This document shows, in pieces, positions 10,181 to 45,147 of a stretch of DNA of 45,556 nucleotides (its first letter is position 1; each line of letters begins with the position of its first letter). Origin of the DNA: a virus. The notes under the pieces are model-generated. The model did no database searches, had not been told where the DNA came from, and worked only from the letters and a program-made list of their open reading frames with translations. Location: IMG/VR virus record IMGVR_UViG_3300036985_001699, positions 1-45,556 of that record; one strand, 5' to 3'. Position numbers and translations under genes: made by a program.

Positions 10181-10201
10181 GCAAATTTAATATTTTTTAA
10201 C
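10181..10201 (-). promoter_or_regulatory. Late-type promoter motif, fibre gene
   Basis: The minus strand carries a -7 box TAAATTTG preceded by GTTAAAAAATAT. It matches the motif at 37873-37893 and 41486-41506 at 18 of 21 positions. It lies about 20 bases before the fibre start codon and overlaps the stop codon of the 1024-aa gene. Confidence 0.5.
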
Positions 10202-13200
10202 TAATTTACGCTTTCTTGTGGTTTTTTCTTCTTATCCTCTTGAACACTTATACCACCACCGAAAAATCCGTAGAACAATAGCATCCCATCTAATGCAGTA
10301 GGGTCGTCTTTCAATAGGTCTAGCACGGTATTCAAGTAAATAGGGCGCATAACCTCACCTAGTTCATTTTTAAACGAGTATTCTTTGCCGTATAGCTTAC
10401 GCATACCATCTCTATCAACATTTGACTTCATATAATTTACGAGTAACCCTGCTGACGGTGCTAGTTTATTGGTAGCTTGTTGTGTAATTAAGTCAAACTT
10501 AGTAGGGGTAAAAATACCTTGCCCTAGTCTTTTAGTTTCTCCGCCTTTAGTAATGCTGTCTAAAATCATTCTTGAAGCAAACACAATTTGTTGGATTTTA
10601 CCACCCCACGGGTCTATTCGCCTATTCCCAATAATAATCTTACCAAAGTCACTACTTGTTGGGTCTGAACCCACGCTTGTTTCATCATCGTCATCAGTTC
10701 CTAAACCTGCGGCTGCTAACATAACCATAGAAGTAGTCAATCCCATCATTTTTGATAAGTCGCCTAGTGCTATCTTATTAGCTACCGACACTTCTTTCGT
10801 GCCGCTATCTTTTTGCCACTTATAAACTTGTCTAGGTAGTAAAATAGTAGTTTTTAAGCCCGAAGCCCAATTTCGAGGCGAGAAGAAAACCTTACTTAGT
10901 TCTTCCGAAAATCCTTCCAATTTACCAATAGAAGCACGACCCGTTAGTGTGTTCACTACGTCCGCCATATCTTTGTAGGCTTGTTGGTTTTCGTTGTAGT
11001 TCTTGCCCTTCATTTCTAGCATTTGAACGCCATCAAGGAAACGAAGCACACGAATAGTGTCTAGGTAGCCTACTGACGCACGTTCCAACGCTTTAAATGG
11101 ATTGGCTTTTAACCAACCTTCGTAAGCACTTTCGCTTTTTAGTTTTAGAGGTGAGCCAAGTACACCCCAAGCTATGTTCGTCCATTGGCTATTGAATAAC
11201 TCCTCTCTCGCTGTAATTTTAGAATTAGGTTCGGTTATCGCCAATTTAGACTGCTTCATTATCGGGTAGAACTCTTGCGCTCGTAGGTTACTAATGAACT
11301 CATCTGATTTCTTTTCACTCCACATCATTGACCAAGCGGTCTTTGCCGCCTTGTAGCTATTGCTAGGATTGGATATTAATTGTGTCAAGCCTTGCACCCC
11401 AATAAACGACCACTCACCCGTTGCGCTTAATGCACGGGTAATTCCCCATGCTTCCCACGCCTTGTCTTTCCAAACTTCAACCTTAGTTCTGTTTCTTAGT
11501 TCGGCTTTTTGGATTTCCTTGTCGTACTCGTCTTGAAGTCTAATCTTTTCAGCACGAAGTTTTGTCAATTCGGTATCCTCAATTAATAGCTTCTTAGGCT
11601 TCTTGTCAAAGTCCTCGTTCTTCAATTTATTTTTTAGAACCTCTATGCGCCTTTCGGTAGCACGTTTGGTCATTTCTAATCTCTTCGCTTCTTTGTAGGT
11701 TTCGTCCTTGAACATTTCATCGTAACGCTTCTTAACTTCATCACGCTTTGCTTTAAGGTCGTCCAATTCTTTGTCACTACGCATCGTTCTAGCACTCTTA
11801 GGTACTTGCTCCCCTTTGGCTATTTCGGCTTCCATGTCCTCGATTTGGTTACTCAACCTAGTCTTAGCGGCATCTAACGCTGTTTTAAGTTGCTTTTCCA
11901 TCGTGGCTTCGTCAACACCTAATTCTTTAAGTGCCTCTCTTACCTTTTTACGCATTTCACGTTGCTCAACAGTTGGTGCTTCTCTTTGCTGACCACTCTT
12001 TAACGGACGTTGACCTTTTTCAATATCTTCTAGTGCGCTAATCATTCGACCGATGTCTTTCATTCGGTTGATTTCTTTGGTTATATCATCACCGTTTTTA
12101 AATGTCTTGCCGTAACCCGTAATAGCGTCACGAATTTCTCGTTCCGTTCCACTATAATCTTTTTGGATAGCTTTTACTAGGTCGTCAATGTTATCAATAC
12201 CGTCCTCTACCAACCCACGAATGTATGAGTTTGGTATCTTTAGCTTGTTATCGCTTTCTTCGGGTAGCATAGCAAGGTCGAAATCAGTAGCAAAGTCGTC
12301 AAAGTTTAATTTGTCGCCAAACTTAGTCTTAACAAACTCACGCACTTTTTCGCCTACGTTTTCAATAGTTGCTTCACCGTTCAATATTAGTGACTGACCT
12401 ATCTTAGTAAGACCCGTTACCACGCTTGCACGTTTCGTTCCACTAGCCATCAACTGAACGCCTAATGCTTGTGCAATGTCGTCCAATCCTTCGCTCATTA
12501 ATCGCTTTGCCTTTGCTTTTTTATTGGCAGTAGGATTTCGCTTAATGGATGCTTTTATTTCATCTACGACTTGTTGTTCTGACGCTTTTTGTGCTTTGTT
12601 TTCGGCTTCCTTAATCTGCTTAGACAACTCCTTTATTTGGTCGTCTAGTTCCTTGAATTTAGCGGCTATTTCAGCAGGGATTTCTCCGTTGTTAGCGTCC
12701 TTGTATTCCTTGATTTTCTTTTCGTAGTTATAGCCTAAGTCGCTATCTCTGTCGTAAATGTACCCTAATTGAGAACCAAATTGTCCCGCTTCGGTGGCTA
12801 CATTGCTAAACCTACTATAAACAGCCGCCAAGTCTTTAGATAGAATTTCAATTTCCTCTGTTGTTTTAGCTGAATTTATTTGTTCGTTTAAGTCACGGAT
12901 TTTAGCGGCATACACCTCTGCGGCTGAACCGCCCACAATGTCACCATTAATTGTCGCTTGGTAAGCCATATCCAAACCGACTTGTTCGATTAACTTCTTA
13001 GCATTGGCTTCCGCTTCTGCGTGAGGTATCTTATCTCTATTTAAGCCGAACTTCTCAATTTCTTTACGCACTTCTTCTCTAGTATCACCCTCATACACAC
13101 GATACGTTAAGACGGTCTTTTTTACGCCACCATCTTTTACTCCCGTTTCTGCTTTTCCTTTAGGAGGCTTCTGCCCGCCACTAGCCATATCAAACAAATC

Positions 13201-13275
13201 ATCATTTTCAAGTAGTGCTTGTTTAAATTGCGCTTCGGTTAATACTTTGCCGTTAAGTGTGTATTTACAACCCAT
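10201..13275 (-). CDS. Large internal virion / polyvalent protein (1024 aa)
   Basis: 1024 residues. The first 650 residues are mostly charged helix with long coiled-coil segments (DLKAKRDEVKKRYDEM-type). The C-terminal 350 residues carry a membrane-like segment GLTTSMVMLAAAGLG near 860-875 and a conserved block SSDFGKIIIGNRRIDPWGG near 885-905, which is shared by many phage 'large polyvalent protein' C-termini. It is likely an internal head protein ejected with the DNA. Start and stop joints are tight: its ATG overlaps the stop of the ferritin gene (TAATG). No enzyme motif is seen. The assignment to the polyvalent class comes from my memory of that family and should be checked by profile search. 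Confidence 0.6.
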   Translation of the reverse strand: MGCKYTLNGKVLTEAQFKQALLENDDLFDMASGGQKPPKGKAETGVKDGGVKKTVLTYRVYEGDTREEVRKEIEKFGLNRDKIPHAEAEANAKKLIEQVGLDMAYQATINGDIVGGSAAEVYAAKIRDLNEQINSAKTTEEIEILSKDLAAVYSRFSNVATEAGQFGSQLGYIYDRDSDLGYNYEKKIKEYKDANNGEIPAEIAAKFKELDDQIKELSKQIKEAENKAQKASEQQVVDEIKASIKRNPTANKKAKAKRLMSEGLDDIAQALGVQLMASGTKRASVVTGLTKIGQSLILNGEATIENVGEKVREFVKTKFGDKLNFDDFATDFDLAMLPEESDNKLKIPNSYIRGLVEDGIDNIDDLVKAIQKDYSGTEREIRDAITGYGKTFKNGDDITKEINRMKDIGRMISALEDIEKGQRPLKSGQQREAPTVEQREMRKKVREALKELGVDEATMEKQLKTALDAAKTRLSNQIEDMEAEIAKGEQVPKSARTMRSDKELDDLKAKRDEVKKRYDEMFKDETYKEAKRLEMTKRATERRIEVLKNKLKNEDFDKKPKKLLIEDTELTKLRAEKIRLQDEYDKEIQKAELRNRTKVEVWKDKAWEAWGITRALSATGEWSFIGVQGLTQLISNPSNSYKAAKTAWSMMWSEKKSDEFISNLRAQEFYPIMKQSKLAITEPNSKITAREELFNSQWTNIAWGVLGSPLKLKSESAYEGWLKANPFKALERASVGYLDTIRVLRFLDGVQMLEMKGKNYNENQQAYKDMADVVNTLTGRASIGKLEGFSEELSKVFFSPRNWASGLKTTILLPRQVYKWQKDSGTKEVSVANKIALGDLSKMMGLTTSMVMLAAAGLGTDDDDETSVGSDPTSSDFGKIIIGNRRIDPWGGKIQQIVFASRMILDSITKGGETKRLGQGIFTPTKFDLITQQATNKLAPSAGLLVNYMKSNVDRDGMRKLYGKEYSFKNELGEVMRPIYLNTVLDLLKDDPTALDGMLLFYGFFGGGISVQEDKKKKPQESVN

Positions 13276-13766
13276 TATTTTCCTAGTTCTTTGTCAATTA
13301 TTAATAATGCGCAAGCATCATCTTTAGCTAATTCTACTCTTGCTAGCAAATCCCCATATTCGCCCACCGTCTTGCGCTGAATTTCCACATAAGGCAATAG
13401 GTGTTGTAGAATTTCGGGGTACTCCATACCCTCTGTCTTAGCTAATTCTTTGTAGTATTCCAACAAGTCATATTCTGCTTCCATCGCTTCGGTTAAAGCA
13501 TTTTTCAGCGTAGTTACCTTGTTAGATATAGCATCGGTCTTTGGCATACCCACCGTTATTCCCATATCGTTCAAAAAGTCAATATGATTTTGAGCGTGTC
13601 CATTTTCTTCGGAAATTTCCGATAAGAATTTCTTTTGTGCGCCAAAGTACCCAACGCCCTGCATCTGACTAGCTAAATGTCGGTATAGCTGTGCGTGGTA
13701 GAGTTCGTATTTAATTGCTTGCTCAAATTTGCCAACACATGATTGGTCTAATAGTTTTTTTCTCAT
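13275..13766 (-). CDS. Ferritin-like diiron protein
   Basis: 163 residues, close to the length of bacterial ferritins (about 165). Four helices are evident. The diiron site can be read by spacing: E21 in YELYHAQLY, E54 and H57 in SEENGHA, E98 in EAEYDLLEYY, and Q130 in EIQRKT, with the E21-E54 and E54-E98 distances (33 and 44) equal to those in E. coli FtnA as I recall. So the ferroxidase centre looks complete. The role would be iron oxidation and storage. The gene is coupled to both neighbours: 1 base of overlap (TAATG) with the 1024-aa gene downstream and a 1-base gap after the 1601-aa gene. That suggests coexpression, perhaps copackaging, with the internal proteins (inference). Confidence 0.8.
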   Translation of the reverse strand: MRKKLLDQSCVGKFEQAIKYELYHAQLYRHLASQMQGVGYFGAQKKFLSEISEENGHAQNHIDFLNDMGITVGMPKTDAISNKVTTLKNALTEAMEAEYDLLEYYKELAKTEGMEYPEILQHLLPYVEIQRKTVGEYGDLLARVELAKDDACALLIIDKELGK

Positions 13767-13767
13767 T

Positions 13768-16700
13768 TTAGCACTCTATTTTTAGGTTTTTGATTTCTCC
13801 GTTATCTATCTTGGTTTGAAGCATAGTTTTCATGTCCTCAAAGTTATCAATTATTTCTCTAACTCTTTGCGCTTTTTCGGGATTTTCTTTTGCGTATTCT
13901 GATAGCAACTTATCTTTTTTGCTTGCCCCTTTAGTTTCATCGTAGGTTTCAAAAATAGATTTTTCTTCTACTTTAGCTTTTTTGCCACTAGCTTCATCCC
14001 AAGCTAGTTTAATATTATCGTTTATTTCTTCACCAATTTCTTCTGCCCACGCTTGTATATCACCACCGACTTCGGCAATGTATTCTTTCGCTACTTCAAC
14101 ATAGGCATCGAATAGTTCTCGGTCTGCTTTTGCTTGGTTCTTTGCATCTTCAAACGGGTCAACGACTGCGCCTAAGTTGCCTTTCTTTTTGGCGAGTTCG
14201 TCACGCTTCTTTTTGATTTCGGCTAACTTGGCTTTTGCGGCTTCGAGTTTGGTTGGCTTCAAATCTATCTCCACTTGACCTTTCAACTTATCGTCCACCA
14301 ATCCTTGCGCTTTATCGTAGGCTTCTTTCGCCTCATCGAATTTGCGTTTAGCGTCTTTGGCTTGCTTGGCTAAGTCTGCGCTATCGTCAAATAGTTTTTG
14401 TTCTTTGCCTTCAAACACAGAACTTTGCTTATTTGCTAAATCGGCTTCTAGTGCTTTTGTGACTTTATTGTATTCGTTTTCCGCATCTAAGAAGTTGCGC
14501 TTGGCTTCTGCAAGTCTTTCTTCGTTTTTATTTCTTGCATCTTTTTGATTTTCAACATCCTTTTCGCTTTCTCCTCGTTGGTTAGTTTTGGCGTTTGCAT
14601 AGTCTAGTTCTTTTTGTTTTTCTTCGTTAGATAATGTATTTAGGTATTCATCGTATTCTTTTGCTTCTCGGATAACATCTTCTTCTGTAATTCCACTTTC
14701 TTCTAATTGATTAGAATATTCATCCATTTCGGATTGTTCTTCCCAATTTAAACCGTTTTCTTTGTACCACTTCTTCTCTTGCTCTGCCTTATATTTACCT
14801 TCTTCAACATACGCTTCATATTGTGAGCGTGTCATACCATAATTCTCCATAAAAGAAGCATCATCATATTTCTTAGCCAACTCTGATTGTAAATCAAGTT
14901 TGCTATCATATCTGCTTAACACCTCAATTATTTCGCTTCTGATTTGCTGTTGGTCGTACTCCATGTCGGGGTTCATTGCGGTCATTTCTTCTGCAATATT
15001 CATAACCAAATCGTCCATTCTCGGTGCTTTGCTAGAATGAACCCAACTACGTTTCTTGAAATCTTCTTTACCTCTAGTTTCTGAAATTACATTACCCTTA
15101 CTCGTTATTCTTCCACCACCTTTTTGAGAACCAAATCCCGTTTCTGACTTTAAATCTTCTGTGTTTATTCTACCACCAACGGCAAAGTATTTCATTACCG
15201 CATCAAATGTATCTAGTGGCACATATTTTCTTGATGCCTCTAGTATTTTTATAGGCTTAACTTCGTCTACTTGTTCAGCTTTAGGTGCTTCTTTAATAAC
15301 CTTTTCTGTACTTTCAATTACTACGGGTGCTTGTTCGGTTGTTCCCTCTTGCCCCGCCTCTGCTTTGGGTGTTTTTTTGAGGGATTGTTCTACTGCTTCA
15401 AAATCTTTTTTAAACTGGTTGGCTTGACCTTTAGGCACTTCTATTGCCACTTTCCCAATGCCTAATTCTTTTGCTGCAAGTATTCTGTGTCTACCATCTT
15501 CAAATGATATTTTACCATTGTTTATTTGTGCGATACTTGGTTCAAATTCAGCCTTTGTTGTTTCGCTTCTTACACCTGTCTTTGGATTAATCCATCTTTT
15601 ATCTTTAGCGTAATTTAAAATAAAATCTTTTGCTTTTTGAACCCTACTACCTATTTGATTTTTTTTGTTTTGCACATCATAATCAGGGTCGTCTTTCGTA
15701 AGCCTATCTAATACCTTAGATGGGTCAACAAATACGACTTCATGTGTTTTAGGGTAACGCTGTTTGTATTCAACTGTTGTCAAATCAACCTCTCCCCCTA
15801 CTACACTACCTGCTTTAACTTCTTGAGTAGGTTCGGTTGCTCCCCCTTGCCCCGCTTCTGCTACGGGTTGTTGCTTATCTTCGGGGTAAAGTATTTTACT
15901 TTCGTCAAGAACAATTATTTCATTTTCATATTGAGATGAATTTTTATCTATAATGGCATCGTAGCCTAGTTTTTTTGCCGCATCCGATATGTGATACGAA
16001 GGGATTTCTGCTATTTCTGAAATATTATCGGGGTCATACCTAAAATATGCTTCATCTTCCCCTAATTTAAGTCCTTTCTTTTTCCCATATTCTTCATCAG
16101 CTAACCTAATTGCTTCTTTTTCTATCTCATTCCACTCTTTTGTATTTGTATATACAGGTTTGTTTATAGTCAATTCTGCCTCTGTTATGTTCTCTCCAAA
16201 CTCATTTGTTACCAAATCTTTGTTAGTAGAAAAATAAACTCCTGTCCCAAATTGGGGGGCATTACTATTTTTTAACCTACCGCTTCTTTTTTGACTAGAG
16301 GCGTGAAAAAATATTTTATTTCCCCCTAATGAGAAAACACTACTACCTTCATTAACCTTACTCTCACTAACCGTAGGTTCTAACTCCACTTCCACCGTTT
16401 CTGCGTTGGGCTGTTGGGCTTCGACTATTTTCTGCGCTTCCTTCTCTTGCTCGGCTTTGGTCTGTTGCTCAATTATTTTAGTCGCCTCTTTTTGCCTATC
16501 CTCCAAGAACTTTAATCGCTCTTTATCGTAGTCGGTGTTGCTGTCCTTTGCGGTCTGTAATTTATTGAGTTCGGCTTTCTCCTTTGCTGTTAAAGGGATA
16601 GCGGCTTTAATTTGTATCTCCGATGATAGTTGCTCAATTTTGCCCTCTATTGCGGGGAGTGCTGCGGGGGAAGCGGTTTTCTTTTGTTCTTCTAATACGT

Positions 16701-18573
16701 CCAACTGCTTCTGTAAATCAATTACATCGTCAACTGATTGTTCGGGGATTTCTACGCCTTGTAGTTTCTGTTGAGCTTTGGCACTTTTCTGAACGTCTTG
16801 TATAAATTGATTAGCATTTGCTTCATTAGCCACCCCTTGCTTTACAGCATCATCTACTATTGCTTGTATATCTTGAAAAGGTGCTTTAGCCATCGTATTA
16901 ACAATAGTTCCATAGCCCTTTACTTTTTGACCGCCTGTTACTGCTACTTTCACTCCTAAGCCAAAAAATGCTTCTCCTGCCATATTTTCAATGACACCTT
17001 CGTGCAACTTTCTATCTAACCCTAATCGTTGTATGTTTGCGTTTTGCCCTGCGGCAACAAGCCCTGCCGTAACAACATCAATTTGGGCTTCTTTTAACCC
17101 CGATTTTACAGCCTCTTTAAAACTTTTTGATACTACGCTTGCTACGGGTTTTCCGCCTGCGGTTACTAAACCCGCCAATCCTTCTACTACTCCACCAACC
17201 CCGCCTACTACTGCTTGCTTTTTAGCTAACGCTAACGCCTCTGCTTGAGTTTTACCTTGTGACCTAGCTGTGGTATAAACATCTAAAATACCGCTACCAA
17301 TACCCATTCTTCCATAATACAAAGCACCTGCACCTACACCGACTGCGGGGCTTAAAGCACTCGCAGTAACAGATACCGCCATAGGCTTAACTTGACCACC
17401 AATCATAGTACCTATATCTCCACCAACCGTAGTTTCTGTCGGCATAGTGGCTTGTTCCATGTAAAGATTTTCGAGAGATTTACCAAGTTGGTCGTCATCT
17501 CCCGATAAATATAAGTCAGCTAAAGTATTTGATATTGTTGTTTGATTAATGCCATCAAAGAAACCTTTGGTAAATCCAACTTTTTCAAGTTTATCCTTAT
17601 TGAGATTATACATCTCTTTGATGTTCAAATCAATTTGTGCCGCATTTTCTTTGTACTTATTGATGCTAGTAGATAATTCTTTTGACTTTATATCAGCCAC
17701 TCCAAGAACATCTCTTAATTTTACTTTCCCCTCGTATGCCGCTTTTGCTTCAAAAGATTTCTTGCCTTTGTTTACAATGTCTTTTATCTGATTTTGTCTA
17801 TTTACTTCTTCCGACATATCATCGGATGGCATATTAAAAGTAGGTATTGTAACGGTTGCATTGTATTCGTCTGTTTGACTTACATCTGTATCTAGTAAAG
17901 CATCTCGTTTGGCAACTAAAGCATTGTAAGCGTCTATCTGTTCTTTTGTTTTTGGCTCACCCATTGCCGCTAACTGACCGTCAATAGCTGTCAATTCTTT
18001 GTATTGAGGTAGATTAGTGGCAAAATCAATTTGGCTAGAAAGGTTTTCTATTTTCTTTCCTTCTTGAAATACTTGGTCTTGTTTTGCAACGGTTTGTTCT
18101 TGTAGTTTTTTTGTTCTTACATATCGTGACTGATTAATGTCTTCTAAAGCCTTTTGAGCGTTTTCAGCATTAACTTTAATCTCGCCAAAAACATCACCTT
18201 TGGCAATACCCATCTGCCTACTCTCGTCACCAAGAGTTAATTTACCCGTTATCCTTGAGTTTGTCTTATTAATTTCGTCAATAGCGTACTTTCTAGCATC
18301 AGCCATTGACGATTGACCCTGCAAGTCGCTTATGCGCTTTTCTGCAAGTTCTTGGATATTCTTTTCCGTAGGCTCAATAATAAACTTATCCCTTGTTCCA
18401 CTCACGGTAGAAGGCACGGATTGAGGCTTTAAGTCGGGCTGTAAAACTCCGCTTTTTCCACTTATAGGTTCGTTTTTTTTTTCGACAGACAAGTCAACCT
18501 CATCGTCAGATAAAAGAGAAGTTTTACCAATTACAACCTCTTCGTCAGAAAGCAAATTCTTATCTAATGCCAT
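13768..18573 (-). CDS. Giant polyvalent internal virion protein (ART + ParB-like domains)
   Basis: 1601 residues. From the N-terminus: acidic helical region; glycine/alanine-rich hydrophobic segments at about 380-480 (GGDIGTMIGG, VGVGAGALYYG, GGVGGVVEGLAGLV) that could insert in membrane; coiled coil to 740; an ADP-ribosyltransferase-like domain at about 750-895 (IFFHASSQ, FGTGVYFS, GYDAIIDKN); a ParB/sulfiredoxin-like domain at about 930-1080 centred on FEDGRHRILAAKELG; a conserved polyvalent-type block near 1130-1215 (KAPRMDDLVMNIAEEM, IIEVLSRYD); and a long coiled coil to the end. Such chains are known as polyvalent proteins, injected with phage DNA to meet host defences. The adjacent genes also look like internal proteins. 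Domain calls are by eye; activity is inference. Confidence 0.7.
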   Translation of the reverse strand: MALDKNLLSDEEVVIGKTSLLSDDEVDLSVEKKNEPISGKSGVLQPDLKPQSVPSTVSGTRDKFIIEPTEKNIQELAEKRISDLQGQSSMADARKYAIDEINKTNSRITGKLTLGDESRQMGIAKGDVFGEIKVNAENAQKALEDINQSRYVRTKKLQEQTVAKQDQVFQEGKKIENLSSQIDFATNLPQYKELTAIDGQLAAMGEPKTKEQIDAYNALVAKRDALLDTDVSQTDEYNATVTIPTFNMPSDDMSEEVNRQNQIKDIVNKGKKSFEAKAAYEGKVKLRDVLGVADIKSKELSTSINKYKENAAQIDLNIKEMYNLNKDKLEKVGFTKGFFDGINQTTISNTLADLYLSGDDDQLGKSLENLYMEQATMPTETTVGGDIGTMIGGQVKPMAVSVTASALSPAVGVGAGALYYGRMGIGSGILDVYTTARSQGKTQAEALALAKKQAVVGGVGGVVEGLAGLVTAGGKPVASVVSKSFKEAVKSGLKEAQIDVVTAGLVAAGQNANIQRLGLDRKLHEGVIENMAGEAFFGLGVKVAVTGGQKVKGYGTIVNTMAKAPFQDIQAIVDDAVKQGVANEANANQFIQDVQKSAKAQQKLQGVEIPEQSVDDVIDLQKQLDVLEEQKKTASPAALPAIEGKIEQLSSEIQIKAAIPLTAKEKAELNKLQTAKDSNTDYDKERLKFLEDRQKEATKIIEQQTKAEQEKEAQKIVEAQQPNAETVEVELEPTVSESKVNEGSSVFSLGGNKIFFHASSQKRSGRLKNSNAPQFGTGVYFSTNKDLVTNEFGENITEAELTINKPVYTNTKEWNEIEKEAIRLADEEYGKKKGLKLGEDEAYFRYDPDNISEIAEIPSYHISDAAKKLGYDAIIDKNSSQYENEIIVLDESKILYPEDKQQPVAEAGQGGATEPTQEVKAGSVVGGEVDLTTVEYKQRYPKTHEVVFVDPSKVLDRLTKDDPDYDVQNKKNQIGSRVQKAKDFILNYAKDKRWINPKTGVRSETTKAEFEPSIAQINNGKISFEDGRHRILAAKELGIGKVAIEVPKGQANQFKKDFEAVEQSLKKTPKAEAGQEGTTEQAPVVIESTEKVIKEAPKAEQVDEVKPIKILEASRKYVPLDTFDAVMKYFAVGGRINTEDLKSETGFGSQKGGGRITSKGNVISETRGKEDFKKRSWVHSSKAPRMDDLVMNIAEEMTAMNPDMEYDQQQIRSEIIEVLSRYDSKLDLQSELAKKYDDASFMENYGMTRSQYEAYVEEGKYKAEQEKKWYKENGLNWEEQSEMDEYSNQLEESGITEEDVIREAKEYDEYLNTLSNEEKQKELDYANAKTNQRGESEKDVENQKDARNKNEERLAEAKRNFLDAENEYNKVTKALEADLANKQSSVFEGKEQKLFDDSADLAKQAKDAKRKFDEAKEAYDKAQGLVDDKLKGQVEIDLKPTKLEAAKAKLAEIKKKRDELAKKKGNLGAVVDPFEDAKNQAKADRELFDAYVEVAKEYIAEVGGDIQAWAEEIGEEINDNIKLAWDEASGKKAKVEEKSIFETYDETKGASKKDKLLSEYAKENPEKAQRVREIIDNFEDMKTMLQTKIDNGEIKNLKIEC

Positions 18574-18575
18574 AT

Positions 18576-20294
18576 TTATCTTTTAACCTTTTTTAAAACG
18601 CCATTCTGTTTAACTCTTTCAACCCCATCAACAAATATAATATCTCCTTCCTTTAACCCCGAAACAAATTCGGTAGTTATTGAACTAGATGTATAATCGG
18701 TCTTTTTGTTTTTCGTAGCGGTTTCCTTTGGCGTATTTACCGCCTTTTCTTCTACTACTTTATCAGCAGGGAAAGCCTTTTCAATAGTAGGCTTCACAAA
18801 TCCCGATAATCCTTCAATAAACGCATCTTCATCCTCTTGGCTTTTTTTGTAAAACATATCGTGGTCGTAAGTAGTACCACCTTTTGACGCACCTTTGTCC
18901 TTAACCATTTTAAGGAACGCACCTAAATTATCGTCAGCACTTTCGCCAAACTCTGCTTGGAGAATAGACGGCAATAACTCTCCCGCATTTGAATACTTCA
19001 CAAGTTTCGGTCTAACGGGTTTTGGGTCTTCGCTATCCTTATTAGCCTCTATGTCTTCTCGGTTCGTTACTCTACTCTTTGTGGTCTGCAAGTAAACATT
19101 GCCTTGAGCGTCCATAAACCAACTCTCAATCACGTTTGGAACTTTAGCCGTACCGACAATTACATCGCCACCGACCTTCGTACCGTTAAACATATTTGAC
19201 GTATAAAGTTTTCTGTCCTTTATTTGAGTTTGGTCTGTCGGGTTGTCTATCGCTGTCCATAGGTTCTTGTCCTTATTAAACAAAGCTGCTAATGTTTCTG
19301 CGTAAGGTGCTACGTTTTGAACTTTCTCATCGTTGCCGTACTTTTGTCTTGCTTTTTGTTGCGCCTCTGCTTGTTGAGTAGGCGTAAACGTAATACCGCC
19401 TCTATCTTTTTTAGTGGCTTGGAAAGTTTTTATTTGGTCTTCCACAAATAATTGGTAAGGCGTTTTGCCTTTGTTCTGCGGTTGTGCCGCCCTATTTGTG
19501 TAAACATTTAACAAATCTTGATTGCCGTATGTTTGAGTTGCGGGGTCGTACTCCAAAGCGTTAGCCCAATCTTGTTTACGCTTTGAATTATACTCTTTGT
19601 CGAGTAGAAGTTCTGTCGCCAAATCCGATATTTGCTTGTCGGGCAAGAACACTTCTGTTTTTTCTTCGGTAAACCCACCCGTTGCTTTATCTCTAACGGT
19701 TCTAGCTTCAACCGTAGACTTCAAATCTTTTACCCTTGCGCCCAATATTTCCAATGAAGTCTTCTGCTTTGGCATAGTGGTCATTTTCAATCTAGCTTCT
19801 TGTCTTTTGTCGCTTTCTATCGGGGCGGTGCGTAGCGTTGCCCCCGAAGTCAATAACTCGTCAATATTATCAATCTTCTCTAACTTAGTCGGGTCTTGGA
19901 ACACTTTAAGTAATTCATCGTCCATCTTAGACGCTTTTACGCTATTCTCAATCTTCGCCTTTAGTGAGTTCACTTTCTGTAAATATTCGGGCGACTGCGT
20001 TTCGTAATACTTAGCGGCAACGTCAACCAACTCTTGCGACATTTTTTGTATTTCAGGTCTGTCGTTATTCAAAACGCCCGTTGTGTCAAACTTCAAGTCA
20101 GCAATTAGCTTTTGGTAGTCTGCGGCTTTCTTGTCTATGTTGGCTTGTTTCTGTTTGGCGAAGTCGTCTAGGTCGTCAGCTACCTTCATGCCAATCTCTT
20201 GAGCGTCATATTTTGGCTTGTCAAATATAACCGCACCTACCCTCGCACTTGCTTGGTTAGGTAACATACTTCCACTTGGCTGTACTATCTGCAT
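18576..20294 (-). CDS. Internal virion protein (572 aa), function unknown
   Basis: 572 residues, highly charged and rich in Q, K, D and T, with helical segments (KQKQANIDKKAADYQKL) and no transmembrane segment. No recognised motif. It is followed at 2 bases by the 1601-aa protein and preceded at 4 bases by the 260-aa protein, so it is in the same internal-protein operon. The order of a small, a medium and one or more very large proteins is like the ejection protein set of podoviruses (T7 gp14-gp15-gp16), and it may correspond to the middle member. That is inference from order and size only. Confidence 0.55.
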   Translation of the reverse strand: MQIVQPSGSMLPNQASARVGAVIFDKPKYDAQEIGMKVADDLDDFAKQKQANIDKKAADYQKLIADLKFDTTGVLNNDRPEIQKMSQELVDVAAKYYETQSPEYLQKVNSLKAKIENSVKASKMDDELLKVFQDPTKLEKIDNIDELLTSGATLRTAPIESDKRQEARLKMTTMPKQKTSLEILGARVKDLKSTVEARTVRDKATGGFTEEKTEVFLPDKQISDLATELLLDKEYNSKRKQDWANALEYDPATQTYGNQDLLNVYTNRAAQPQNKGKTPYQLFVEDQIKTFQATKKDRGGITFTPTQQAEAQQKARQKYGNDEKVQNVAPYAETLAALFNKDKNLWTAIDNPTDQTQIKDRKLYTSNMFNGTKVGGDVIVGTAKVPNVIESWFMDAQGNVYLQTTKSRVTNREDIEANKDSEDPKPVRPKLVKYSNAGELLPSILQAEFGESADDNLGAFLKMVKDKGASKGGTTYDHDMFYKKSQEDEDAFIEGLSGFVKPTIEKAFPADKVVEEKAVNTPKETATKNKKTDYTSSSITTEFVSGLKEGDIIFVDGVERVKQNGVLKKVKR

Positions 20295-20298
20295 ATTA

Positions 20299-21081
20299 CT
20301 AGATTATTCCCATTTGTTTTAGTAAGTCAATCGCTTCGGCATCGGTCTTGCCCTTTAATGCGGCACTTATTGCAGTTTGAGATAACCCACCTCCACTACC
20401 CGTTGCAGTTGTACCAAACAAAATATTTCTTCTTTGAGCATCAAAGTCTTTTGTATCCATTCCTTTTGCTTTCAAAGTATTAATATCCGCACCCGCACTA
20501 ATCCCCTTTCCGAGTGCCGTTCCCAAACCCGTTACCGTTGAACCTACATTCTCTAGTGCCGTTTGCTTGTTAGCTGTGCTAGATTGCAATAACGCTTCCG
20601 CACTAGCCATAATTTTACGCTTTTCGTCTAATTGTTCTTGGGTCAATCTCTCTTGTTCCGCTCCGACACCTTTCAGTTCTTGGATAGCGTTCTGTCTGTT
20701 ACGCAATTTAAACTCACCTTGCGTTGCATCTAGGTTCACCAATTCTTTATTTTGATTTCCCAACACAGCCGAAATAGCGTCAGCCGTCACGCCACCGTAA
20801 GGACTTGCTTCTCTGATTGAACGTAGTGCATTGGCTGAATTAGCGTCTATGTTTGCTTTAGCCGCCCCGTAGGTGGGCATACCACTCTGCGCTAATAACT
20901 CTGCTTCGTTTAAAGCCGTCATATATTCGGGACGTATATCTCGCTTCTTTACGTTTTTGGCTTCTTGTTGCAACTCCCCCGCACGTTTCTTTTGCTCTTT
21001 AGCTACTTGAAATTGATTAACCATCGAAGGGATTTGTGCTAATAAACCTAAGCCCGAAGCCGCTAATTGAGGAATAAACAT
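20299..21081 (-). CDS. Internal virion / ejection-like protein (260 aa)
   Basis: 260 residues. It has a small hydrophobic N-terminal stretch (AASGLGLLAQI), then a long alanine/glutamine-rich helix (QFQVAKEQKKRAGELQQEA), and a glycine-rich tail with a TTATGSGGG linker. This is the look of gp14-like internal proteins of short-tailed phages, which are ejected first and sit in the outer membrane. It leads the internal-protein operon, just after a -7 box at 21098-21105. Family call is based on composition and position. Confidence 0.55.
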   Translation of the reverse strand: MFIPQLAASGLGLLAQIPSMVNQFQVAKEQKKRAGELQQEAKNVKKRDIRPEYMTALNEAELLAQSGMPTYGAAKANIDANSANALRSIREASPYGGVTADAISAVLGNQNKELVNLDATQGEFKLRNRQNAIQELKGVGAEQERLTQEQLDEKRKIMASAEALLQSSTANKQTALENVGSTVTGLGTALGKGISAGADINTLKAKGMDTKDFDAQRRNILFGTTATGSGGGLSQTAISAALKGKTDAEAIDLLKQMGII

Positions 21082-21531: not shown

Positions 21532-23646
21532 TTAGTATTTTCTCATTTGCATAAACGACCTAAATGAAACAGGTTCTTTTTTCGTTCTTGTCTTTAACTC
21601 CCTTACAGGCATTAAGGTGTAAGCACCCGCCACAAAGCTATCGAAAGGACTGATATTGTCATATCCCACTTCCCGACAATCGGTGAGTAGATTAGGGAAC
21701 TTGCATCTGTTACCGTGTGTTTCAATGTACCAATCCACACTCGCAAATAAGCTATCCTTCATCGCCCCGCCTAGTGTGGTCGCCCCCGAATTGACGTTCT
21801 CCTTAATCTGAACCACGCCATCTTTCTTCACCAATTTCTTTCCATAGTGCAAATACTTCTCGTACCCTCTGCGTACAAAGTGCTTTGAGATAATATCTGC
21901 GTTCATTTCGGGGTTCACCTTGCACGAAGAATAGATAGCCCACATCAACATATCCTCTGCGAATAGGTCGGTAGTGGCAGGACGGAAAAGGTACTCCCCT
22001 ACAAAATCATCTGTTAGCCAATCTATCTCATCTTTTTGTCCGTCTATTGATTGGTCAAAGTACATCCATTGATACCCCGCACCGTGAGAGGGTTTGTTGG
22101 AAGTGGTTACATTGTACTTAAAAGGGTCACAGCCTATCACAAACTTGTCAAAGTTAAGTGGAATTTTCTTGCCCAAGTTCTCCCCACCTCTGTTCGATTG
22201 GTCTTGGTCTAGTACATAAGCCATAAGCCATCGCCCGTTAGGGGTTGGTCGCCAAATCACTTCTGTATCTTCTACTCCATTCTTCCACTCGAAGTTGCCA
22301 CGAACTTTGCCCTTCTCCTTATCAAACAAATACTCGCTCATTCGGTCATTGATTATACCTAAGTTAAAGTGGCAATGGGTTGCTGAACTTCTAAATGCTT
22401 CCGTAACCGTTCTAGGAAATTTTCGTATCTCGTCTTGTTTCTTACGTTGGTCTTTGATTGACCTAAACTTCAAATCTAAATATTCTTTTGCGCCTAGCTT
22501 ATCCAAGCCTAGTTTGAAATCTTCTTCCGAGCATTGCTTCTTTCTGTCCTCTAACTGATAGCCACTAGGGTTCTCTATTATCGGATAGCCAAATCTGTCC
22601 CACAAATAACACTCGTAGGACGGGGTGAAGTAAGGGATAAGCCCCGATAAGGTTTCGCCCAATTCGTTTATCTTTCCATCCTTTTCTAGCCTAGAGCTAT
22701 CTGCCCACAATTTGATGAACTTCTCTAGTCCGCCTTTCTCCATTTCCTCGATTGTAGTTGAGATAATGCACTTGCCTATAATCTTATCATCTTCAATTAA
22801 GCACGGCTTCACTTTGTCCCACATTTTCACGGGGTCTGCGGGTGGCTTCATCTTACCGCCCTCATCCATAAAGTATCTGTGTAGTTTCTCACCGTCATAA
22901 GCCGTATCGGTTGACGACCTATAATCAATCCAACTCTCTAGCGTTCCTTCTGTCACACCGTTGTCCGTAAAGGCTATGTCTTTCTTCATTTTACCCGCCT
23001 TGTCATAGGTAGGCTTGAAGAAGAACGGTAGCTTTCTAAATGGGCTTACAATGGCTTTATGGAATAGACTTTCGGCATCGGCATCGGACTTGGACTGCGC
23101 CCCCGCAAAGGAGTTCTCATTTCTAGTCACATAATCTAATAGAATACTCCCCGCTTTGTATGTCTTACCGCTTCTTCTTCGGTTCAAATCACAAAGACCG
23201 TACACTCTGTTATTCTTAACCACCTCAAAATCCCATAGCCAAAATTGCTTCAAGTCGTTGTACCTAAATGCAGGGAAGCCAATATCTAGTTGGTAGAAGT
23301 TAAGATAGAAATAGTAACTGCCCGTTATGTAAGTAGGATTTCCGTTAATCAATACCCACTCCCCGTTTAACCTCTTATCCCACGCCATCGCTATGAAGTC
23401 AGCGCACTCCTTGTCTTTCATTGCTACTGCAAACGCTTCGTCCCTATCTAATCTATTTAATTTCATTAGCTTGTCGGGAACTCTATCTCGGTGATAGATT
23501 TGCTTCATTACCTCCTTGCCGTAGTTTTTAAACTTCTCAATGGGTGGCGGGGTAGTTGGTAATGTAATGAAATATGTTTCTATTTCGGGTATGTTGTCGC
23601 ACAACGCAACGTGAGGGTTGTAGTCCTTGTAATCAGTAAACTTCAT
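21532..23646 (-). CDS. terL: Terminase large subunit
   Basis: 704 residues. The ATPase has Walker A RRRSGKTYKAGS near residues 155-165 and a Walker B strand ending RYFMDEGG near 255-262. The nuclease domain begins with FVIGCDPFKYN near 503-510 (first catalytic Asp), with further acidic residues in DLFAEDMLMW and NISPFDSFVAGAYTL near 668. This is the packaging motor that cuts and translocates DNA through the portal. Length is a little above the usual 450-650, with extra sequence in the ATPase domain. No small subunit is recognised nearby. The promoter box 23665-23672 is 18 bases upstream of the ATG. Confidence 0.85.
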   Translation of the reverse strand: MKFTDYKDYNPHVALCDNIPEIETYFITLPTTPPPIEKFKNYGKEVMKQIYHRDRVPDKLMKLNRLDRDEAFAVAMKDKECADFIAMAWDKRLNGEWVLINGNPTYITGSYYFYLNFYQLDIGFPAFRYNDLKQFWLWDFEVVKNNRVYGLCDLNRRRSGKTYKAGSILLDYVTRNENSFAGAQSKSDADAESLFHKAIVSPFRKLPFFFKPTYDKAGKMKKDIAFTDNGVTEGTLESWIDYRSSTDTAYDGEKLHRYFMDEGGKMKPPADPVKMWDKVKPCLIEDDKIIGKCIISTTIEEMEKGGLEKFIKLWADSSRLEKDGKINELGETLSGLIPYFTPSYECYLWDRFGYPIIENPSGYQLEDRKKQCSEEDFKLGLDKLGAKEYLDLKFRSIKDQRKKQDEIRKFPRTVTEAFRSSATHCHFNLGIINDRMSEYLFDKEKGKVRGNFEWKNGVEDTEVIWRPTPNGRWLMAYVLDQDQSNRGGENLGKKIPLNFDKFVIGCDPFKYNVTTSNKPSHGAGYQWMYFDQSIDGQKDEIDWLTDDFVGEYLFRPATTDLFAEDMLMWAIYSSCKVNPEMNADIISKHFVRRGYEKYLHYGKKLVKKDGVVQIKENVNSGATTLGGAMKDSLFASVDWYIETHGNRCKFPNLLTDCREVGYDNISPFDSFVAGAYTLMPVRELKTRTKKEPVSFRSFMQMRKY

Positions 23647-42805: not shown

Positions 42806-45127
42806 TTATTTCGGTGGCAAACTCGCCTCAAATGCTTTCTCGCCTTTCTTGGTTTCCGACCTTACTATTGTTTGTTCGTTTCTGTACGGTTGCGTTTCTT
42901 TAAACACCCTTATTTGCGCTTCGGCTTCCGCTTGTATTACAGCTAGTTTTGTTTCACGCTCATATTGTAACATTTGCATTTGCCCTTCTGTTGACGCTTG
43001 GGTCTGTTGTACGATGCCGTCTGATTGTGTCTTAATCTTCATTTGCTCATTCGCCACAAACTCATCTCTGCGCTTTTTCAACAAGTAAGAATACTTACGC
43101 ATAATTACTTTAAGATTTACACCACTATATATCTCGGTAATCAATGGGATTGCATCGTCCACGAACAGACCGCCCGTAGTAGGGTTGTTAGGATTGATAA
43201 CGCTACTCATTATCATTTCCTCCATTTTTCTTCTTTGCTGTTCGGTAGGCAATGGCTCTAATGCAATACCAAATGTCATAGGGCTTACTTCTTCACCGAC
43301 CTCTATTATCTTGCCTAATGCTTTGTCATATACGCCAATAGTTTTATCCTTGAGCATGATTTGTAGCTTCAATGATATATCCGTAGCTAATCTCTCGTGG
43401 ATGTTGGTTACTGCGTCCAAGATACTTCCCAAAGAGTTTTCCGATGACGACACAGCTTGTTTTGCCACACCACTTAACATATTCGGGTCAGGGTTGCTTG
43501 CCGCCATTACCTCGTTAATACCGCTTACCTCGTATATCATTCGCATATTGTAGTCCAAGTCTGCTATGATTTCGCTAAATTGTCGCCCTAATCCACCGTC
43601 CAATTCCTCAATAGGTTTACCTGCTATCCGCCCGTTCTCATCCATTGTAGAAGTACCACGATACAATACGATACCCGTTTCGGTAGCCATTTGGAACAAC
43701 TCTTCTGTGGATTTTATCTTTCCGTCCACCATCACATTATCCCACGCTTCCAAGTTAATCATCAAACCTTTTGGTAGTGCCGTTGCTTTTAAGTTCTGCA
43801 ACTTCAACCAACTTAACTGAATAGCGTCCGCAAATGGGAGAATACTCTCCAAAATACTTTTGTTGTCGCTTCTGTATATTTTAATAGGCAATGAACATTC
43901 TCTAGGGTTTCTTTTATCTCTAGGAATGTCGTACATTTTTCCGTAGTTGTACACATAGTTGGTGTTGATTAACCAACTTGTTTTGTAAACCGATACTATA
44001 TCTACGGGATAAATTTCTTTTTCTACTTTTTGCCCTTCCTTGTAGTCTACGTTTTTACCCAATTTAGCGTTAAAGCCTTTTTGGTACACCATTTCCCCAT
44101 CGTTAGACTTGACTTTCTTCATTTTGTATCTGTCGGTACTGATGAAGTAAATGTCCATAATCACTACTTGGTAGTTCTGCCATTGACCGAAGTTGGCATC
44201 TGTATTGACGTAAGGTTGTGTGGCGTTGTTTGGAGCGAAAGGTTGGTTGTAACTATTCTGCGCTTGTGCTGCTATCTGCTCGTATTCCTCGTCTGTAAAT
44301 TGACTTCCTGCTTCTTGTTTTAATTGAGCAATAGTCACCGCACGAAGTTCCGCTATTCTTTCAATATCTCCGTCACCCATTCCGCCCGTCTTGCCTCTAA
44401 AGTTATCGAATAAAAGGTTCACGGGGTCAACGTATCTTACGTCAATTTCTTTGGTGAAGATATTTGTTTCCACTTTGGAAGCCGCCAACCCTAAGTCAAA
44501 AGCGTCCTCAATGTTCTTTCTGTGTATGTCGTTGAACCTATTTTTGTCAAGAATGTGCTTTGTTGCTAATTCTATTTTCATTTCCTCTGCCATCTTGTAG
44601 GTCATAGAAAATAGCATTTCAAATTCTTCTCTTACTTCGGGTATAATATCTAATTCAGGGTTGGTTAATGGAACACCCGACTGCGCCTCGACTTGCGCCA
44701 AAAAGGGCTGTAATTGCTTTTCTGCCCACGTTCTAATCTTTACAGTTTCTTTGGAGTTTACCGCTTCGGGGTTTACTGCCGTTGCGATAATATCGTAGTT
44801 CAATTTTAGTAGGAAGTTAATCACTACTCTTCTAATCTTTGGTATCGTGGAAACAATGCTCCAATCTAAGTTCAAATACGTTGCCCTTCTCCCCTCGTTG
44901 TCTTTTACCCTTGCCAACATATCCATGTACTTCTGCGTAGTTTGATTTCCGTCAGCGTACTTTCGGTTGCTTATCCAATCAGCCCTACGTTGTAAAACAT
45001 ATTGATTTTTCACCCACGCATTGTAGGCGGCTTGACAATATTGAGCAAACCATTGTTTCCCCTTTAAATTAGGGTCAATTAAATGGGACGGGAAAAAACT
45101 AAGGTATGTCGGGTTAGGTAAGTTCAT
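42806..45127 (-). CDS. Portal protein
   Basis: Start at the ATG at 45127 (MNLPNPTYLSFF); a TTG at 45139 adds four residues and is less likely. 773 residues. The region up to about 500 has the mixed alpha/beta core of portals, with an NEVMAASNPDPN segment and a following helix (DAVTNIHERLATDISLKLQIMLKD) that looks like the crown/barrel region. The tail is helical and Q/E-rich (MQMLQYERETKLAVIQAEAEAQI), typical of the C-terminal barrel. It would be the dodecameric ring for DNA packaging. Supported by size and position upstream of scaffold and capsid. Confidence 0.7.
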   Translation of the reverse strand: MNLPNPTYLSFFPSHLIDPNLKGKQWFAQYCQAAYNAWVKNQYVLQRRADWISNRKYADGNQTTQKYMDMLARVKDNEGRRATYLNLDWSIVSTIPKIRRVVINFLLKLNYDIIATAVNPEAVNSKETVKIRTWAEKQLQPFLAQVEAQSGVPLTNPELDIIPEVREEFEMLFSMTYKMAEEMKIELATKHILDKNRFNDIHRKNIEDAFDLGLAASKVETNIFTKEIDVRYVDPVNLLFDNFRGKTGGMGDGDIERIAELRAVTIAQLKQEAGSQFTDEEYEQIAAQAQNSYNQPFAPNNATQPYVNTDANFGQWQNYQVVIMDIYFISTDRYKMKKVKSNDGEMVYQKGFNAKLGKNVDYKEGQKVEKEIYPVDIVSVYKTSWLINTNYVYNYGKMYDIPRDKRNPRECSLPIKIYRSDNKSILESILPFADAIQLSWLKLQNLKATALPKGLMINLEAWDNVMVDGKIKSTEELFQMATETGIVLYRGTSTMDENGRIAGKPIEELDGGLGRQFSEIIADLDYNMRMIYEVSGINEVMAASNPDPNMLSGVAKQAVSSSENSLGSILDAVTNIHERLATDISLKLQIMLKDKTIGVYDKALGKIIEVGEEVSPMTFGIALEPLPTEQQRRKMEEMIMSSVINPNNPTTGGLFVDDAIPLITEIYSGVNLKVIMRKYSYLLKKRRDEFVANEQMKIKTQSDGIVQQTQASTEGQMQMLQYERETKLAVIQAEAEAQIRVFKETQPYRNEQTIVRSETKKGEKAFEASLPPK

Positions 45128-45147
45128 TCTTTCTTTCAATATTGTTA

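Follow-up and report, generated by a model that had tools for sequence, protein, structure and literature searches.

The window analysed here, a stretch of 45,556 nucleotides forming the virus record IMGVR_UViG_3300036985_001699, carries a gene for ferritin, a protein of iron oxidation and storage, between the genes of two very large proteins, A upstream and B downstream (Table 1). A first-pass annotation of the window had proposed a 163-aa ORF at this place. The ORF is real. It is read on the minus strand from an ATG start, from position 13766 to position 13275, and translation of the plus strand over the same region gives many stops. The near-zero spacing claimed with respect to the 1601-aa and 1024-aa genes is also borne out: the stop codon of A occupies positions 13770-13768, which leaves 1 nt before the ferritin ATG, and the ferritin stop shares one base with the start of B (TAATG), giving a 1-nt overlap. 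Considered by order only, the 572-aa and 260-aa genes that precede A have the relative positions of gp125 ('virion structural protein') and gp124 of Cellulophaga phi13:2, respectively. At the contig start, the ORF at positions 9-890 is cut, and full-length homologues of 466 aa, 98-99% identical, are found in two related contigs, G002 and G004. The window is therefore a fragment of a larger genome.

Table 1. Genes and segments of the window around the ferritin gene and in the virion gene block.
Feature	Position	Strand	Remarks
Protein B, 1024 aa, downstream of ferritin	10201..13275	-	Starts MGCKYTLNG; N-terminal Cys motif weakly resembles other B proteins
Ferritin gene P0001, 163 aa	13275..13766	-	Predicted two-iron, H-like centre (E21, Y28, E54, H57, E98, Q130); five predicted helices, including E helix 150-162
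Protein A, 1601 aa, upstream of ferritin	13768..18573	-	Shares homology with L001 proteins that carry ART-PolyVal and LPD38; predicted to be a polyvalent protein that is ejected
C-terminal 80 aa of protein A, ending ...IDNFEDMKTMLQTKIDNGEIKNLKIEC	13771..14010	-	Position equivalent of the conserved Cys-ending terminus beside ferritin in other phages
572-aa protein, gene before A, same operon	18576..20294	-	Probable ejection protein; relatives have 646-, 549- and 554-aa genes in synteny with it
260-aa protein, opening the predicted ejection cassette	20299..21081	-	Identity 74-89% to close relatives and 33% to G001
Terminase large subunit (phrog_6681)	21532..23646	-	98% identical in G002, whose ejection cassette differs
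Portal protein (phrog_6547), start of the virion gene block	42806..45139	-	

The close relatives of the window are four viral contigs. When the window is compared with G002, its nearest relative, the terminase, portal and capsid genes are 92-99% identical but the ferritin is only 51% identical, and the 572-, 1601- and 1024-aa genes have either been replaced or become mosaic. In G002-G004, one ORF of 2528 or 2991 aa replaces the two large genes and is followed by ferritin, with no separate B. Since ferritin is present even though the ejection block is replaced or mosaic, the block would have been exchanged between these phages with ferritin kept each time. As for protein A of the window, its first half matches G004 and a later part matches G002. 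The ejection region of Pachyviridae and Elemovirus (phi13:2 and Flavobacterium elemoF) offers a more distant comparison. These phages have related terminases, and their late genes follow a comparable order, with very large virion genes at the end, but they differ from the window in having no ferritin gene. The gene is also absent from the ctfjg026 genome, another with a related terminase. Thus, ferritin is not required for this virion type.

Fold and metal centre of the ferritin

The identity of the product as a ferritin, put forward in the first-pass annotation, is upheld by a profile search, in which the 163-aa protein matches Pfam PF00210 (Ferritin) at 3.1e-12 and 47 bits, for a cut-off of 24.5. 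The Rubrerythrin profile also exceeds its own cut-off, as a related superfamily match. Solved relatives retrieved from the sequence are nearly all ferritins, with the Archaeoglobus and E. coli proteins at the top. The AlphaFold2 model, computed from an alignment with four phage relatives, has a mean pLDDT of 91.7 and shows five helices, among them the C-terminal E helix. It overlays E. coli FtnA with a TM of 0.88. In a fold search with this predicted model, the best matches are bacterial, archaeal and animal ferritins, with Z of 21-22 over nearly the whole chain. The predicted fold is thus the expected four-helix bundle. Two outcomes named in the first-pass annotation as refuting a ferritin, a failed profile match and a different fold, therefore did not arise. 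Together with proteins of L030 and L033, two other ferritin-bearing phage contigs, the window ferritin matches phrog_16594, a phage family that overlaps the window clade and has no functional name in PHROGs ('unknown function'). The G002-type ferritin gives no match to this family at E 0.01.

The ligands claimed earlier, E21, E54-x-x-H57, E98 and Q130, are all present in the window protein. With Y28, they are 100% invariant in an alignment of 51 phage ferritins (47 distinct sequences, with identity to the window protein down to 33%). These residues are the equivalents of the ferroxidase residues of EcFtnA (E17, E50, H53, E94, Q127 and Y24), all of them present, intrasubunit and invariant in the 51 sequences. 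The ferritin gene is under strong purifying selection, the median dN/dS among close relatives being about 0.13. The ligands are not there by chance, because they are invariant in 51 relatives down to 33% identity and because dN/dS is so low.

The claim of bacterial-ferritin spacing stands for E21, E54 and E98 (33 and 44 residues) but not for helix D, which is without the bacterial third-site glutamates. Site C of E. coli FtnA (E49, E126, E129 and E130) is not kept: the equivalent of E130 is S, A or T in 51/51 phage ferritins, and Glu is found at the equivalents of E126 and E129 in only 4 and 5 of the 51. The helix-D motif of the phage ferritins reads Q-x-K/T-S/T/A-V-G-E-Y-G-D, which we take to resemble that of animal H chains, as in the human sequence. 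Judged from the alignment, the centre of the phage clade is a two-iron, animal-H-like one, in which the bacterial site-C glutamates have been lost.

Compared with FtnA and the H-type ferritins (PF00210), the window protein has in common the four-helix bundle with its E helix, the intrasubunit diiron ligands and the conserved Tyr. It differs in being only about 16-25% identical to them, in missing the site-C glutamates of FtnA, as animal H chains do, and in its fixed phage virion-gene setting. Its score with NF007638, the E. coli FtnA equivalog, is 29.8 bits against a curated cut-off of 178. By its profile scores, the window protein is a ferritin, but no FtnA equivalog.

Two other classes were considered. 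The marks that we take to distinguish a bacterioferritin are a His ligand on helix D, H130, and the interface heme Met52 (Bfr numbering). Position 133 is S, A or T in all phage sequences and the window residue beside E54 is N55, and bacterioferritin is ruled out. Dps, taken as having an inter-subunit ferroxidase site and no E helix, is likewise ruled out: the ligands are intrasubunit, the E helix is present and the best fold matches are maxi-ferritins. As modelled, the product of the window gene is probably an active maxi-ferritin.

Gene order around the ferritin in other phages

About 65 viral contigs, counted by contig name, carry a ferritin of this clade, and about 48 of them, counted in the same way, show the order A-ferritin-B, or ferritin-B at a contig edge; some of the 65 are near-identical and therefore do not represent independent events. 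A scan of viral contigs with the phage ferritin alignment gave 29 loci. At 13 of the 30 loci with readable context, the immediate neighbours of ferritin on both sides are ORFs of at least 900 aa on the same strand; of the 39 other ORFs of 140-200 aa at these loci, none is flanked in this way. The order can also be approached independently of ferritin. With the last 80 aa of A as bait, 31 contigs are retrieved and ferritin is the next gene in all of them (31/31). When the first 60 aa of B serve as bait, ferritin is found immediately upstream in 34/34 testable contigs, a count that leaves out one more contig, whose sequence begins too late to show the preceding gene. Both bait searches reach one large clade. 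The spacing is narrow: ferritin begins 7-11 nt after the preceding gene or slightly overlaps it, and 1-4 nt separate it from the following one. The identical order is found with divergent sequences in the window, L066, L046, L049, L062, L063 and L105. By gene order, ferritin thus has a fixed place in a phage cassette of three genes, a giant A, ferritin and a giant B. The earlier proposal that ferritin is made in step with large ejection-type genes is supported, and is strengthened by this result, since none of the independent retrievals departs from the order A-ferritin-B. In G009, the cassette ends the late gene block, after the terminase, portal and tail genes and several further genes. In L105, a contig from a Zoogloea MAG, it stands beside apparently ordinary bacterial genes and may therefore belong to an integrated prophage. 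A broken remnant of the cassette is found in another Zoogloea MAG (L106).

Ferritins of the same clade also occur in other settings. In Mu-type phages, the gene directly follows Phage_Mu_F (L030, L042, L047 and L050) or Portal_Mu (L045 and L048). It follows a lambda-type portal in L059; in L043/L044, a single 100-aa gene separates it from the terminase and portal that precede it. In L065/L068, it comes after a giant ORF (~3000 aa) and a small ORF, just before the terminase and portal. L033/L041, which are one contig, provide the only case with ferritin away from the head genes. The terminases of the ferritin-bearing phages are unrelated (phrog_6681, phrog_2 and Terminase_3). The recurrence of ferritin beside head-internal or portal genes across unrelated terminases argues for a functional link rather than for one inherited gene order. 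Two of the ferritin-bearing Mu-type phages carry intein-like splicing domains, in the terminase large subunit of L030 (4422-6737, 771 aa) and in the Mu F protein of L050 (8214-9998, 595 aa). In BFVD, several phage proteins of 333-763 aa named prohead protease, ParB/Sulfiredoxin or Dps align, with weak scores, over a ferritin/Dps-like part. These matches hint at ferritin-superfamily domains fused to head proteins.

It may be asked whether the gene is simply a passenger, a host ferritin acquired once and having no particular tie to its neighbours. Bacterial ferritins are common, so that such a gene would be easy to acquire. Nevertheless, this explanation is very improbable in view of the strong purifying selection, the invariant ligands and the invariant position. 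In addition, the phage ferritins form one group in a tree, with support 100/99, against a small cellular sample of five ferritins, and the cellular relatives are only 23-26% identical. A first genome scan for relatives gave no match. In a genome scan with the phage alignment, all close matches fall on phage-like contigs, binned with Burkholderiales, Rhodoferax and Zoogloea, and cellular ferritins, from Chloroflexota, show 23-26% identity. A recent origin from a host gene is disfavoured on these grounds. Among 399 Burkholderiales genomes, matches are limited to the seed genome and to two genomes with weaker matches, one of which (L128) is a cellular-type ferritin with site C. A named phage collection contains no relative of the window ferritin, the weak matches being unannotated records. 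One of these records, L031 (MT836766.1, 'Bacteriophage sp.'), has genes resembling two-component regulators, ferritin and a glycoside hydrolase, and therefore looks like a bacterial chromosome. The hosts of the ferritin-bearing phages would be Bacteroidota, as suggested by related phages, and Burkholderiales-type bacteria, in whose bins contigs are found.

The flanking proteins A and B

Several relatives of A and B carry the domains ART-PolyVal, LPD38, LPD23, Zeta-toxin, SNF2-helicase with DNA methylase, and metallopeptidase. In a Pfam search, A and B of the window show no significant polyvalent domain of their own. Window A is homologous to proteins of L001 with ART-PolyVal and LPD38, and its residues 1112-1296 (185 residues) weakly match a protein annotated as virion structural in Cellulophaga phi13:2 and phi19:3. 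According to a survey of this class in phages and conjugative elements, polyvalent proteins would be packaged and injected with phage DNA (PMC5512222). A and B are predicted to be polyvalent ejection proteins, a class assigned through their relatives. The first-pass annotation had placed internal virion proteins on both flanks of ferritin; homology and gene context agree with this view, as a prediction.

The ends of these proteins that face ferritin have features in common. In the A-B lineages seen, the last or last-but-one residue of A proteins is a Cys (INCD, INCK, KDCP, KIEC, IKC), and B proteins have a Cys within about their first six residues (MTCTY, MANCTY, MSLKPC, MGCKY). It may be imagined that A or B docks on ferritin through these Cys-bearing ends. 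A structural or chaperone role can be envisaged on this basis. A ferritin cage, or a smaller oligomer, would be a prohead platform for A and B, near which the C-terminus of A and the N-terminus of B, each with its Cys, would dock, and iron chemistry would be secondary. The position of the Cys residues, within the last two residues of A and near the N-terminus of B, fits such a role, as does the conservation of the A C-terminal and B N-terminal segments in the main clade, where the middles of A and B are variable. However, a pure scaffold could do without the ferroxidase ligands, all of which are invariant, and the termini of the window resemble those of the main clade only weakly in direct profile comparison. 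The platform is therefore an improbable account of the gene.

Profile comparison supports a common origin of two A-terminus lineages, the window not being one of them (P 2e-5), and gives no link between the B termini of these lineages. For the window, the A terminus matches the main clade weakly (P 0.006), as does the B terminus (P 0.017 and 0.0006). Since these matches are weak, homology of the window A and B termini is not claimed; the link of the A terminus to the main-clade termini is suggestive.

Possible roles of the ferritin

Considering these data, we hold it slightly more probable than otherwise that an active ferritin, in a fixed trio with A and B, belongs to the entry kit of these phages. 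In such a model, A, ferritin and B would be translated together late in infection, and A and B would be loaded into the head as polyvalent ejection proteins. Ferritin would associate with them and be taken into the particle, or at least have a part in their entry function. Whether in the particle or following entry, it would use O2 or H2O2 to oxidise Fe2+ and would sequester the iron, and the removal of Fe2+ would suppress Fenton chemistry harmful to the packaged or incoming DNA and to the injected enzymes. As dozens of phages from the environment have this gene order, the control of iron probably plays a part in infection by these viruses.

That ferritin is packaged in the head or injected, as suggested in the first-pass annotation, is a reasonable inference from the polyvalent class of its neighbours (PMC5512222) and from the repeated finding of the gene next to those of Mu F and portal proteins. 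At 12 nm, an assembled 24-mer is too wide for a tail channel, and ejection would therefore need single subunits or small oligomers. A more specific version, in which ferritin would be an internal virion component assembled with A and B, possibly via their Cys-bearing termini, and delivered into the host for iron handling at entry, is proposed tentatively, at less than even confidence.

Alternatively, ferritin would act only in the producing cell and never in the particle, the late operon serving for timing. It would buffer the iron released during takeover and protect replicating or packaged DNA. The Dps and Mn-catalase genes of phages have been interpreted in terms of oxidative-stress tolerance (PMC8008677), and Dps is found in the DNA-metabolism region of Lactobacillus phages (PMC6669764). 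A soluble 24-mer is hard to eject, and the ferritin of L041 lies outside the head region. However, timing by itself does not explain a position exactly between A and B at 31/31 and 34/34 loci. Nor does it account for a ferritin that in other phages adjoins Mu F or portal genes instead of lying at an arbitrary place in the late operon. A role confined to the producing cell is thus possible but rather doubtful. The membership of ferritin in the entry kit is preferred because of gene position, and the size of the cage keeps the producing-cell explanation alive.

The ferritin-superfamily proteins already described in Gratiaviridae, Flandersviridae and other gut phages (Dps and Mn-catalase; PMC8008677) are likewise phage-borne and linked to iron or oxidative stress. 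Their Dps are mini-ferritins described as oxidative-stress genes, with no fixed cassette with ejected proteins. ART-PolyVal, LPD38 and LPD23 are common to the polyvalent proteins and to the relatives of A and B; in the present case, ferritin has a gene of its own with a fixed place between those of two such proteins, and the main text of the polyvalent survey makes no mention of ferritin or Dps (PMC5512222). In the literature open to search, which mostly excluded subscription papers, reports on phage or virion ferritin deal with Dps, catalase and giant-virus ferritin, and no A-ferritin-B cassette was found. To our knowledge, ferritin-type genes of phages have so far been treated as scattered accessory genes. 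The ferritin family and the presence of ferritin-superfamily genes in phages are already known; the fixed cassette appears to be new with respect to this searchable literature.

The present analysis brings out one ferritin clade locked to genes of predicted injected proteins, across unrelated terminases and distant hosts. A part of iron or oxidative chemistry in phage entry therefore becomes open to experiment. This ferritin provides a concrete test protein for the old question of iron in virions, and the cassette is short enough to be cloned and assayed. If ferritin is indeed packaged and delivered, a kind of phage common in the environment would have iron within its capsid, and a virus-borne iron-handling enzyme would be active at entry.
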